From contig SXOY01000249.1 of assembly GCA_005776545.1 (NCBI GenBank), forward strand, positions 1 to 6,501: a stretch of 6,501 nt of DNA. The letters are read 5' to 3'. Shown here in pieces: positions 3,590 to 6,501 of this stretch. This DNA is from Planctomycetia bacterium. Lineage in GTDB: Bacteria; Planctomycetota; Phycisphaerae; Phycisphaerales; UBA1924. Under the pieces are notes generated by a model. That model worked only from the letters and a program-made list of their open reading frames with translations. It was not told where the DNA came from and searched no databases. The position numbers and the translations under genes were made by a program. Numbering within the stretch: position 1 is the stretch's first letter; each line of letters starts with the position of its first letter.

Positions 3590-4030
3590 ATGGCAAAGTC
3601 AAAGAAGTCTGGATCATCTCTCGGAGGAGCTTCGGCCGCGGATCTCGCGAAGGAAGTGGCAAAGCGGCATCAGCGTGTGGCTGCGCTCAAGAGCAAACGC
3701 AACAAACTGCTGCTTGAGATTCGCGATATGGATGAGCAGATCCGGGCAGAAGGCGGATCGCTGCACGGCGCAAGCATTCACGCGTTCGCGTCGGGCGATA
3801 TGCCTTCCCAGGGCCGCAAGCGGTTCATGAACAAGTCCAATCTCCCTGACGCAATGGCAGCAACGATGAAGGGCAAAGAGCTTGGCGTGACCGAAATCGC
3901 CTATGCCGTTGTGAACAACGGATATAAGACGACCGCCGCCAATTTCCGCACAATTGTCAACCAGACGCTGATTCGCCTTCCCGGCCGGTTCAAGAAGGTT
4001 CGTCGTGGCGTGTACACGTCAAAGGGCTGA
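3590..4030 (+). CDS. Small basic protein with coiled coil and C-terminal HARE-HTH-like winged helix
   Basis: A 146-residue, lysine- and arginine-rich protein. Seen in order: a Ser/Gly/Lys-rich N-terminus (MAKSKKSGSS); a charged helical segment with coiled-coil character (about 17-53, including AALKSKRNKLLLEIRDMDEQ); a flexible linker (54-82); and a C-terminal domain (84-143) with LPDAMAATMKGKELGVTEIA, then NNGYKTTAANFRTIVNQTL and FKKVRRGVY. The order helix, EIA, GY-T-NFRT-V-L, F-KV-RGVY fits the HARE-HTH winged helix found in bacterial RNA polymerase delta subunits and in restriction- or chromatin-associated proteins. From this I infer a DNA-binding or nucleoid/transcription role, possibly as a coiled-coil oligomer; the partner is unknown. 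A TTG at 3548 would add 14 residues, but GGAG 8 nt before the ATG supports 3590. The gene faces parB, with a shared terminator between them. Family assignment is by motif recognition only. Confidence 0.85.
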   Translation: MAKSKKSGSSLGGASAADLAKEVAKRHQRVAALKSKRNKLLLEIRDMDEQIRAEGGSLHGASIHAFASGDMPSQGRKRFMNKSNLPDAMAATMKGKELGVTEIAYAVVNNGYKTTAANFRTIVNQTLIRLPGRFKKVRRGVYTSKG

Positions 4031-4121: not shown

Positions 4122-5156
4122 TTATGTGCATTTTCTAAATTTCTCGACGAGTCCGTCGAAATGATCAATGTCATAATATTCAATCATGATTCGTCCGGCG
4201 GTCATTCCTTTACGACCAACGCGAGGCTGTATCTCCACTTTTGTACCAAGTACTTCCCCAATCTGGCGAGCAAGGTCGGCGAGGATAATCAGGGTCTTAT
4301 CTGTTGCTGCATTTTGATGAGCCGCGGCTAGTTCCTGACCGACGCCCCCGAGCTTTCGGGTGCGAATCGCTGATTGCCATTTCTTGACTTCAATTTCCGT
4401 GGTCTTGACGCTCCAGCCGCTTGCCGCAGCACGTTTGCCGAGAATAACGCGTCCACGCTGATCCTGGCTCAATTCTGGCTCCGACTCAAGAGAGAGCAAT
4501 ATCTTGGCGTGACCGTTAGAAAGATCACCGCGAGCCACAAGATCCTGAAGCACGGGTTCCAACTCGGTCAGGCGGATCAGATTGGCAATGGTTGAGCGGT
4601 CGACTCCGACGCGCTCGGCAATCTCAGACTGGGTCATTCCAAATTGCTCGCCAAGGGCGCGAAATGCGAGGGCCTTATCGATCGGATTGAGATCTTCACG
4701 CTGAACGTTTTCAACAATGGCCCATTGGGCACTGTCGCTGTCGGACAATTCACGGATAACCGCTGGAACAGTTCGCAGCCCTGCTTCGGAAGCCGCCCGC
4801 CAACGCCGCTCGCCAGCCACCAATTCCCAGGTCGCCCCTGCAGCCGAGCCATGCCCCCCCACTACTCCCCCGCTCACCGATTGAGTGAGCGGCCGCACGA
4901 CAATTGGCTGCATGACGCCGCTCGTTTTGATCGATGCTGCCAATTGAGCGATTGTGGCATCGTCTATATGTCGGCGCGGTTGAAAACGATTGGGGATGAT
5001 ATCCGCGATCGGAATATGAACCAACCCGTCTGTCTGGTGAGTAGACGGACCGGTATGTTCATTGACAACTGAGGTCTCTACGTGGACTACCTGAACAGGG
5101 GTATGCACAGAAAGTAGACTGCTGAGGCCCCTTCCGAGTTTTTTTGGCTTATCCAT
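4122..5156 (-). CDS. parB: ParB/Spo0J chromosome-partitioning protein (CTPase clamp)
   Basis: A 344-residue ParB of normal length. ParB binds parS, hydrolyses CTP as a sliding DNA clamp and, with ParA, segregates the chromosome origin region. Seen: N-terminal LGRGLSSLL (7-15), the usual ParA-interaction motif; the ParB/Srx nucleotide fold (about 45-155), with SGVMQPIVVRPL (79-90), GERRWRA (115-121) and ENVQREDLNP (149-158) as its CTP motifs; a helix-turn-helix (MTQSEIAERVGVDRSTIANL, 174-193) followed by the parS-binding helices; and a C-terminal dimerisation domain (about 290-340, KVEIQPRVGRKG, IMIEYY). A Gly-rich insertion at about 91-107 sits between the first two CTP motifs. AAGGAA on the minus strand (5164-5169) lies 7 nt before the ATG, a good Shine-Dalgarno site. 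No parA is adjacent: the gene is divergent from a histidine kinase and ends at a terminator, so it appears monocistronic. A parS-like site lies ~190 bp upstream. Confidence 0.97.
   Translation of the reverse strand: MDKPKKLGRGLSSLLSVHTPVQVVHVETSVVNEHTGPSTHQTDGLVHIPIADIIPNRFQPRRHIDDATIAQLAASIKTSGVMQPIVVRPLTQSVSGGVVGGHGSAAGATWELVAGERRWRAASEAGLRTVPAVIRELSDSDSAQWAIVENVQREDLNPIDKALAFRALGEQFGMTQSEIAERVGVDRSTIANLIRLTELEPVLQDLVARGDLSNGHAKILLSLESEPELSQDQRGRVILGKRAAASGWSVKTTEIEVKKWQSAIRTRKLGGVGQELAAAHQNAATDKTLIILADLARQIGEVLGTKVEIQPRVGRKGMTAGRIMIEYYDIDHFDGLVEKFRKCT
4870..4892. repeat. 8-bp inverted repeat inside parB
   Basis: CCGCTCAC (4870-4877) and GTGAGCGG (4885-4892) form a perfect inverted repeat around a 7-nt loop, within the codons of the glycine-rich ParB insertion. 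Adjacent homopolymers (C7 at 4854-4860, C5 at 4867-4871 on the plus strand) make this a low-complexity patch. It may simply be part of the inserted sequence. Confidence 0.4.
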
Positions 5157-5276
5157 GAATCGCTTCCTTGCTTGTTGTAGCAGTGTAGCACGAACTGGCC
5201 TGCGAGTGTTGTGTGAAACTGGCGAAATTGGAACTTCTGCGAGTTTGCATCAAATTATTTGATTGAGCGGTCAGCG
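5157..5276. promoter_or_regulatory. Divergent parB / histidine kinase promoter region
   Basis: This 120-nt gap must hold the starts of both divergent transcripts. On the minus strand, AAGGAA (5164-5169) is the parB ribosome binding site and TACACT (complement of 5182-5187) is a reasonable -10 box, but I find no -35 at the right distance. On the plus strand, TTGGAA (5228-5233), a 17-nt spacer and CAAATT (5251-5256) form a weak promoter candidate, and GAGCGG (5265-5270) could be the kinase ribosome binding site. Only the parB ribosome binding site is convincing. Confidence 0.4.
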
Positions 5277-6068
5277 ATGATTCGAGCTTGCTTGTCCGAT
5301 GAAACTGCAATGTCAGAGCGACACTTCGACCAACACGCGAATGCGTTCCACGTGGAACCAAGGCCGGATGCACTGCTGGATATTCAACTTGCTGACCTTC
5401 AGCGACTCGCATCGCTCGGTGTCTTGACTGCGGCGGTACTGCATGAGATCAACAACGCGCTCACGCCCGCGATGACATACTCGCAGCTGGCACTTGCCAA
5501 TCCTGGTGACGCTGTTTTGATGAAAAAGGCACTCGAGCGTGCGGTTTCAGGTATCAAACATGCCAATCGAATTGCGGAATCGACGCTTGGATTGGCAATG
5601 CCGTCGGAGCGCGAGAGCAAACGCGCGTGTGATACATGTGCCACCGCGGCAATTGAAACGGTTCAGAGTTCTGTTTCAACAATTGCATGCCAAGCTGGAG
5701 TTTCGGTGGTTACAGCATGTGACCATGGAATTCGTTTGGCCATGGATCCAATGGAACTCGAGCAGGTTCTCGTGAATCTCGTCAAAAACTCGATCTGTGC
5801 GTCTCAAATAGGTGGGGTGGTTCACATTCGCTGTTCCACGCAGAACATCACGCAATCGGCGGTAATTGAGGTGGTTGATGAAGGTGTCGGTGTTTGTGCT
5901 TCTATTCGCGAGAAGTTGTTTCGTCCGCTGGCGACGGGTCGGGTTGATGGCCACGGGATAGGTTTGATGGTCTCCCGACGACTCATTGAAGCGGCGGGGG
6001 GAAAACTGGATTTCGATAGCGAGCACTCGCCAGGCGCGAGATTTGTGATCCAGTTGCCCATTAAATAA
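5277..6068 (+). CDS. Soluble sensor histidine kinase, HisKA plus HATPase_c, no recognisable sensor domain
   Basis: A 263-residue two-component kinase from the ATG at 5277. It is expected to autophosphorylate a histidine and pass the phosphate to a response regulator, none of which is encoded here. Seen: a ~35-residue N-terminus without domain features; a DHp helix with the H box LASLGVLTAAVLHEINNALT (about 45-64), phosphoacceptor H56; the N box ELEQVLVNLVKNS (about 160-172); the G1 box VVDEGVGV (199-206); the F box LFRPLATG (214-221); the G2 box GHGIGL (225-230); and a final ARFVIQLP strand. There is no signal peptide or membrane segment, so it should be cytoplasmic. It has eight cysteines, four of them clustered at C118, C121, C138 and C148. 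Other starts are TTG 5259 and ATG 5310; 5277 is chosen for its length and the GAGCGG 6 nt upstream. The gene diverges from parB and carries the parS-like palindrome in its N-terminal codons. Confidence 0.9.
   Translation: MIRACLSDETAMSERHFDQHANAFHVEPRPDALLDIQLADLQRLASLGVLTAAVLHEINNALTPAMTYSQLALANPGDAVLMKKALERAVSGIKHANRIAESTLGLAMPSERESKRACDTCATAAIETVQSSVSTIACQAGVSVVTACDHGIRLAMDPMELEQVLVNLVKNSICASQIGGVVHIRCSTQNITQSAVIEVVDEGVGVCASIREKLFRPLATGRVDGHGIGLMVSRRLIEAAGGKLDFDSEHSPGARFVIQLPIK
5344..5359. other. parS: parS-like centromere site (ParB binding site)
   Basis: CGTTCCACGTGGAACC contains the perfect 14-bp palindrome GTTCCACGTGGAAC (5345-5358). It matches the conserved bacterial parS consensus TGTTnCACGTGnAACA at all specified positions of the 14-bp core; the GTTCCACGTGGAAC form is known from pseudomonads. 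It lies ~190 bp upstream of the parB start, where parS sites often cluster. It sits inside the kinase gene, encoding the residues FHVEP just before the DHp domain. Its role is inferred from sequence and proximity. Confidence 0.85.
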
Positions 6069-6174: not shown

Positions 6175-6501
6175 TCAGCAACCGAGTGAGAATGCATCGA
6201 CGAAATCGAGGTAGTCGAAGAAGTCGATGACGGTGTCGCCGTTGAAATCTGCAGATGGGTCGTTTGCCGAGAAGGCGTCGACAAAATCGAGGTAATCGAA
6301 GAAGTCGACGACGGTGTCGCCGTTGAAGTCCGCCGCACAACTGGGTGAACCGTTGCCTGGAATTGGCAGGTTGGTCAGGTCGAGCGAGCCATTGTTCTTG
6401 AAGTAGTACAACTTGGCGGTTCCGGTGACTGGGGCGGTGTTGGTTGTGACGGAGAACGTTGCCGCGGTTGAGTAGCGAAGGGCAGAGGAGTTAGAGTTCT
6501 G
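6175..6501 (-). CDS. C-terminus of a surface or secreted protein with a GC-type dockerin tail (partial)
   Basis: The minus-strand frame is open from the right edge to a TGA at 6175-6177, giving the last 108 residues of a longer protein whose start lies outside the window. The first ~50 visible residues are rich in Thr, Ser, Asn and Pro (such as ATFSVTTNTAPVTGTA and LDLTNLPIPG), like a beta-sandwich domain or linker of an extracellular protein. Two dockerin/EF-hand-type calcium loops follow, ADFNGDTVVDFFDYLDF (about 57-73) and ADFNGDTVIDFFDYLDF (84-100), 27 residues apart. Asp/Asn are present at loop positions 1, 3, 5, 9 and 12, but Thr replaces the usual Gly at position 6. A Cys precedes the first repeat (55) and another is the final residue (108). 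This Cys...Gly-Cys ending is, from memory, the GC-type dockerin of Phycisphaerae, probably an extracellular attachment or assembly module. The function of the main protein cannot be seen. Confidence 0.88.
   Translation of the reverse strand, partial: QNSNSSALRYSTAATFSVTTNTAPVTGTAKLYYFKNNGSLDLTNLPIPGNGSPSCAADFNGDTVVDFFDYLDFVDAFSANDPSADFNGDTVIDFFDYLDFVDAFSLGC
6194..6336 (-). repeat. Tandem dockerin repeat, 81-bp period
   Basis: Two 62-bp segments (6194-6255 and 6275-6336) are about 85-90% identical, with an 81-bp period corresponding to 27 residues. Most differences are at third codon positions, so the protein repeats are almost identical while the DNA has drifted, consistent with selection on the calcium-loop sequence or occasional conversion between the copies. 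Confidence 0.85.

Follow-up and report, generated by a model that had tools for sequence, protein, structure and literature searches.

The parS sites of chromosomal partition systems are well described: their consensus is printed as TGTTTCACGTGAAACA in a passage of PMC7383237, and a passage of PMC7614844 gives the B. subtilis site as TGTTCCACGTGAAACA. That parS can lie within genes has been described before. In Pseudomonas aeruginosa nine of ten parS sites were predicted inside coding sequences, according to a passage of PMC4368675, and the Caulobacter sites are described within essential or costly genes in a passage of PMC5815017. Here we describe a 6,501-nucleotide stretch of DNA (the whole stretch analyzed, hereafter the window) that carries a parS-like palindrome in a histidine kinase gene next to parB. 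The site resembles chromosomal ParABS parS in its core, its position adjoining parB, the low number of sites per genome (in relatives) and the usual domains of the ParB protein. It differs in that the locus is a parB-histidine kinase pair, the ParA-like genes are unlinked (in six relatives), and only one intact site is present in the window. Similarly to the intragenic sites of P. aeruginosa and Caulobacter, the palindrome is read as codons; in contrast to them, a single kinase gene is the recurrent host in many species of an order, in three reading frames and including the ATP-binding domain. As far as our literature searches show, the novel feature is this recurrent, frame-shifting centromere in one parB-linked kinase gene, which reaches into the catalytic domain and is accompanied by peptide scars. 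A whole-word search found no paper joining parS, ParB, histidine kinase and Planctomycetota, although spelling variants could hide some.

A check of the window sequence identified the perfect 14-bp palindrome GTTCCACGTGGAAC at positions 5345..5358 (no strand), which matches the parS core GTTYCACGTGRAAC. The initial annotation had reported a parS-like palindrome at 5344..5359; the palindrome is indeed there, and the 16-mer adds one C on each side that, being non-complementary, leaves it without the outer T...A of the consensus. The site starts 189 bp from the start of the divergent parB gene (5156), as against the ~190 bp previously estimated, and it translates in the kinase frame as (A)FHVE(P), as had also been proposed. 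By scanning the window with up to two mismatches we obtained two parS-like matches, compared with 0.09 expected from shuffled sequences. Taken alone, the window makes a modest case for constraint on the coding sequence, as parS is also present in 1069 of 20000 synonymous permutations of its kinase gene (5.3%), and it is the comparative evidence that carries the argument. Judging from the window scan and the related loci, the palindrome is very probably a functional parS.

The parB gene (4122..5156, minus strand) is complete and encodes the ParB_N, HTH_ParB and ParB_C domains. It also contains the sequence GERRWRA, an instance of the GERRxRA motif of ParB proteins. In Caulobacter numbering, R173 and G201 mark parS-specific ParB proteins, as opposed to Noc, in a passage of PMC7383237, and R and G occupy these positions in the window ParB (counted along the Spo0J alignment). 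Among the contacts listed there as common to ParB and Noc (Q162, G170, K171, S172, N178 and R204), Q162, G170 and N178 are kept, while K171, S172 and R204 are replaced by V, D and K. In relatives, the arginine motif is matched by 82 of 88 ParB proteins and the other six are unreadable; this count is not independent, since the motif itself demands R (or R/K in the fallback). The sites in seven loci (L154, L155, L172, L179, L208, L209 and L226) include CACATG/CATGTG centres that break the palindrome in the middle. All listed sites are of this kind in L154, L172, L179, L208 and L226, which suggests that the specificity of ParB may have shifted in these five loci.

The kinase gene (5310..6068, plus strand) was assigned by domain search, homologue alignment and an AlphaFold2 model as a HisKA-like plus HATPase_c protein. 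The HATPase_c match is strong (E 1.1e-17) and the HisKA match is under the Pfam cut-off (23.3 vs 26.9), with an H box, HEINN, present; the protein therefore combines the phospho-acceptor H box and the HATPase_c domain that define a histidine kinase. These two elements are shared with AtoS/NtrB-like kinases (NCBIfam matches below cut-off), from which the window kinase differs in its recurrent pairing with parB and in that no sensor domain was found by the domain search. The probable start is the ATG at 5310; alternative starts are the ATG at 5277 and the GTG at 5352, which lies within the palindrome and, if used, would make parS straddle the start codon. We compared the window kinase, as protein, with its seven closest homologues after its own entry (P0002-P0008) among the matches listed (the best 120 of 224). 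FHVEP is present in three of the seven (P0002, P0004 and P0006) and P0008 has FHLEP, whereas the annotated proteins P0003, P0005 and P0007 begin at MEP, with P0007 diverging directly after it; such starts would fit a GTG in the palindrome. On the other hand, P0004, P0006 and the window kinase (read from ATG 5310) share a leader of 12 residues before FHVEP with little sequence in common, and this equal length favors a parS within the coding sequence. Nearer relatives of P0002 were sought at the level of the family and none was found (0 of 163). The AlphaFold2 model has a mean pLDDT of 80 and a pTM of 0.58. Its residues 14-27 are of low confidence and FHVEP (residues 24-28) has a pLDDT near or under 50, so the peptide is probably disordered. 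Both the homologue comparison and this low-confidence prediction agree with the earlier placement of the site in a poorly conserved kinase N-terminus.

The second match of the window scan is a decayed parS-like site, GTTCCACGCAGAAC, at 5833..5846 (no strand), on which the initial annotation was silent, as it was on the catalytic-domain parS of relatives. Its codons read CSTQN (residues 186-190), a peptide that in the model closes a strand and makes the turn of a beta-hairpin within the ATP-binding domain, with high confidence. In the equivalent hairpin of relatives, STWN spells parS; as the window hairpin aligns two columns off most relatives, this equivalence is based on how far the peptide lies beyond the H box (129-155 residues). 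Five of the seven closest listed homologues have CSTWN, and P0005 and P0006 have CSTQN and CSTRN, respectively.

Relatives were drawn from the phylum and from the order around the L058 genome, a planctomycete. In the phylum draw, the kinase was matched in 240 of 392 genomes at E 1e-25, and among the 30 loci returned a parB gene was found within roughly 3.7 kb in 12 and was absent there in 18. Because parB was present at only 12 of these 30 loci, we applied a stricter cut-off of 1e-38, which retains likely orthologs, to the order draw, where 93 of 400 genomes had a match. The loci of these 93 genomes (G639 contributing twice) and two loci of the phylum draw form a set of 96 related loci, or 97 with the window. 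The parB gene is divergently upstream of the kinase in 87 of the 96; of the other nine, eight, some of them short contigs, lack parB in the fetched DNA, and in L200 parB and the kinase lie on one strand. A scan of named-species genomes gave best kinase matches of ~30% identity, with no parB at the loci checked (L058-L080).

A strict set of 73 of the 97 loci was used for locating sites, 14 loci being omitted by the first H-box motif and 10 more having no suitable divergent parB; a looser H-box motif anchored all 97 kinases. The strict set, which includes the window, contains 126 parS sites of all variants between -2500 and +900 of the H box, compared with none elsewhere in 1,026,500 fetched bases. 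Most strict loci have two sites (48 of 73), 16 have one, five have none and four have more than two. In a separate count, GTTCCACGTGGAAC alone occurs in 126 copies over the 97 loci, whereas each of nine control palindromes has no copy there. Because the species are related, locus and site counts are not independent.

Within the kinase gene, parS is read in all three frames, as FHVE, STWN or VPRGT, at different positions. Between the H box and the stop codon the 97 kinases contain 27 parS sites in 26 genes. Synonymous permutation yields 0.86 sites on average and never more than 5 in 300 draws; it ignores kinship, so that the counts are not independent events. In this surely coding part, all 21 STWN peptides are encoded by TCC-AC[G/A]-TGG-AAC, 18 of them with ACG, which gives the perfect palindrome, and three with ACA, which gives a CACATG centre; serine codons overall are TCC in only 309 of 1420 cases in the same part. 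Since the STWN codons there always spell parS, selection acts on the DNA. Over whole open frames, which include sites ahead of the H box whose coding status is uncertain, parS is spelled by 32 of 32 STWN and 10 of 10 FHV[EK], and by 8 of 10 VPRGT, the other two having a single mismatch; the codons of FHIE in L225 do not give parS. The initial annotation had named, as an observation that would count against parS, an FHVEP peptide retained while synonymous changes disrupt the palindrome. No such case was found among the 10 FHV[EK] in the open frames of the 97 kinases, seven of which, that of the window among them, precede the H box, in a part less certain to be coding. The proposed check of codons in orthologs thus came out in favor of constraint at synonymous positions, and together with the clustering of parS at the parB-kinase locus of relatives it supports the identification of the site as a parS.

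We analyzed the history of the hairpin site on an unrooted ParB tree built from 60 of 88 rows, leaving out the 28 whose ParB matches were short. The window falls in a set of 22 rows (SH-aLRT 96), in which the hairpin parS is intact in 16, decayed in four (the window, L165, L155 and L168) and absent in two (L187 and L247); thus most of the ParB clade of the window keeps the intact site. None of the other 38 rows has a hairpin parS. The state of the hairpin requires five changes on the tree, compared with a mean of 14.5 after shuffling. L187 has no hairpin site, yet carries a parS read as VPRGT elsewhere in the kinase. We read this pattern as a single old acquisition in the hairpin, presumably followed by decay and relocation.

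The exact site was counted in 60 of the 93 genomes. It is present in 58, with none in the other two, and its 157 copies include 111 at parB-kinase loci. In the genome scan proposed initially, here carried out in relatives, 46 of the 58 site-bearing genomes keep every exact site at the kinase locus, and the copy number is one to three in 52 of 60. The relatives therefore have the few, clustered copies typical of a chromosomal parS. The whole-genome count equals the locus count in 48 of 60 genomes (zero in two of those); in the other twelve the two counts differ, most prominently in G465 (25 sites, five at the locus), G603 (nine, none at the locus) and G568 (nine, four at the locus). The sites of G465 (locus L193) are spread over many contigs, perhaps of a mixed bin, and in G603 (locus L188) all nine lie away from the kinase locus. 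A reversed-pattern control was not clean, with two matches in G511, one in G522 and none in the other 58 genomes.

Six genomes with the kinase on a multi-megabase contig were scanned for dnaA and ParA; G398, which also has such a contig, was omitted. Exactly two sites, both at the locus, are found in G685, G368, G659, G423 and G352, and G511 has three, two of them at the locus. As regards clustering near the origin, the picture is mixed: the kinase is less than 50 kb from dnaA in three of the six (~25 kb in G685, ~27 kb in G511 and ~49 kb in G352), whereas the distance is ~155 kb in G368, ~487 kb in G423 and, assuming a circular contig, ~715 kb in G659. A sparse GC-skew sample of G685 gave no clear signal. 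In each of the six genomes another protein also matches the DnaA family, more weakly and under the curated cut-off. ParA-like ATPases (PF13614, a family that also holds other ATPases) are present in all six, not adjacent to the locus.

We consider it highly likely that the palindrome is a chromosomal parS bound by the ParB of the divergent gene, with a partition complex over the locus and the kinase gene as host of the centromere. In this mechanism, we infer, ParB would bind the parS at 5345-5358, load there as a CTP-gated clamp and spread across the parB-kinase region, forming over its own locus a partition complex that an unlinked ParA would move in segregation. The codons of the kinase gene would be bent to spell parS, here as FHVEP in an N-terminus that is probably disordered and, at an earlier time, also in the hairpin of the ATP-binding domain, where CSTQN would be the decayed remnant. 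That the FHVEP and CSTWN peptides are instead conserved for kinase function, with the palindrome as a by-product, is very improbable: they do recur among the closest listed homologues, but their codons are fixed, the residue ahead of STWN, outside the palindrome, varies (C/R/G/S), the identical 14 bp gives three different peptides at different kinase positions, and FHVEP itself is poorly modeled. Palindromes with CACGTG also serve other factors, and the site could in principle be an operator of such a regulator unrelated to ParB; however, the low copy number per genome, the concentration at the parB-kinase locus and the match to the parS core make this explanation just as improbable. A chance palindrome, even if synonymous permutation of the window kinase can produce one, is contradicted by both the window scan and the pattern in relatives, and its probability is negligible.

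A less remote, though still unlikely, alternative, in line with the initial annotation, is that the site is chiefly a means for ParB to repress the kinase and parB or to set their timing, while the kinase signals the state of segregation. It would account for the conserved pairing of the two genes, and the lack of a detected sensor domain means that genomic position could be the input of the kinase. In Pseudomonas, a passage of PMC5521831 describes repression by native ParB beside the intergenic parS3 and parS4, and lower expression near parS1-4 with excess ParB; the same passage, however, reports no effect of native ParB beside the intragenic parS1 and parS2. Moreover, the sites of relatives occupy many positions and frames, which a centromere tolerates but a precise operator would not, and a promoter and terminator scan of 5100-5420 was empty, which is weak evidence. 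Regulation of the kinase by ParB is possible, but control of the kinase or of parB by ParB occupancy finds no support in the present analysis. It can be further speculated that the kinase gene is dedicated to bearing the centromere, its expression or activity being coupled to occupancy by ParB, that this sensorless kinase reports the state of segregation to the cell cycle, and that parS turnover between the frames stays in the gene because the coupling matters; we regard this proposal as quite unlikely. With the centromere reading preferred, the locus presents a bacterial centromere site that the codons of a neighboring kinase spell out, in different frames and in many species of one order, with peptide scars in an enzyme domain (STWN to STGN or STQN). 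It is a clear case of selection on a DNA site shaping a protein, and offers a candidate connection, open to testing, of chromosome partition with two-component signaling.

Two other genes were found in the window. A small basic protein, for which neither Pfam nor NCBIfam gives a match, is encoded at 3590..4030 on the plus strand, convergently with parB, and a similar open reading frame is present in the fetched DNA of 28 other loci (of 88 loci counting the window). At the end of the window, positions 6175-6501 on the minus strand encode a GC-type dockerin (NF041540) with the repeated unit DFNGDTV(V/I)DFFDYLDFVDAFS.
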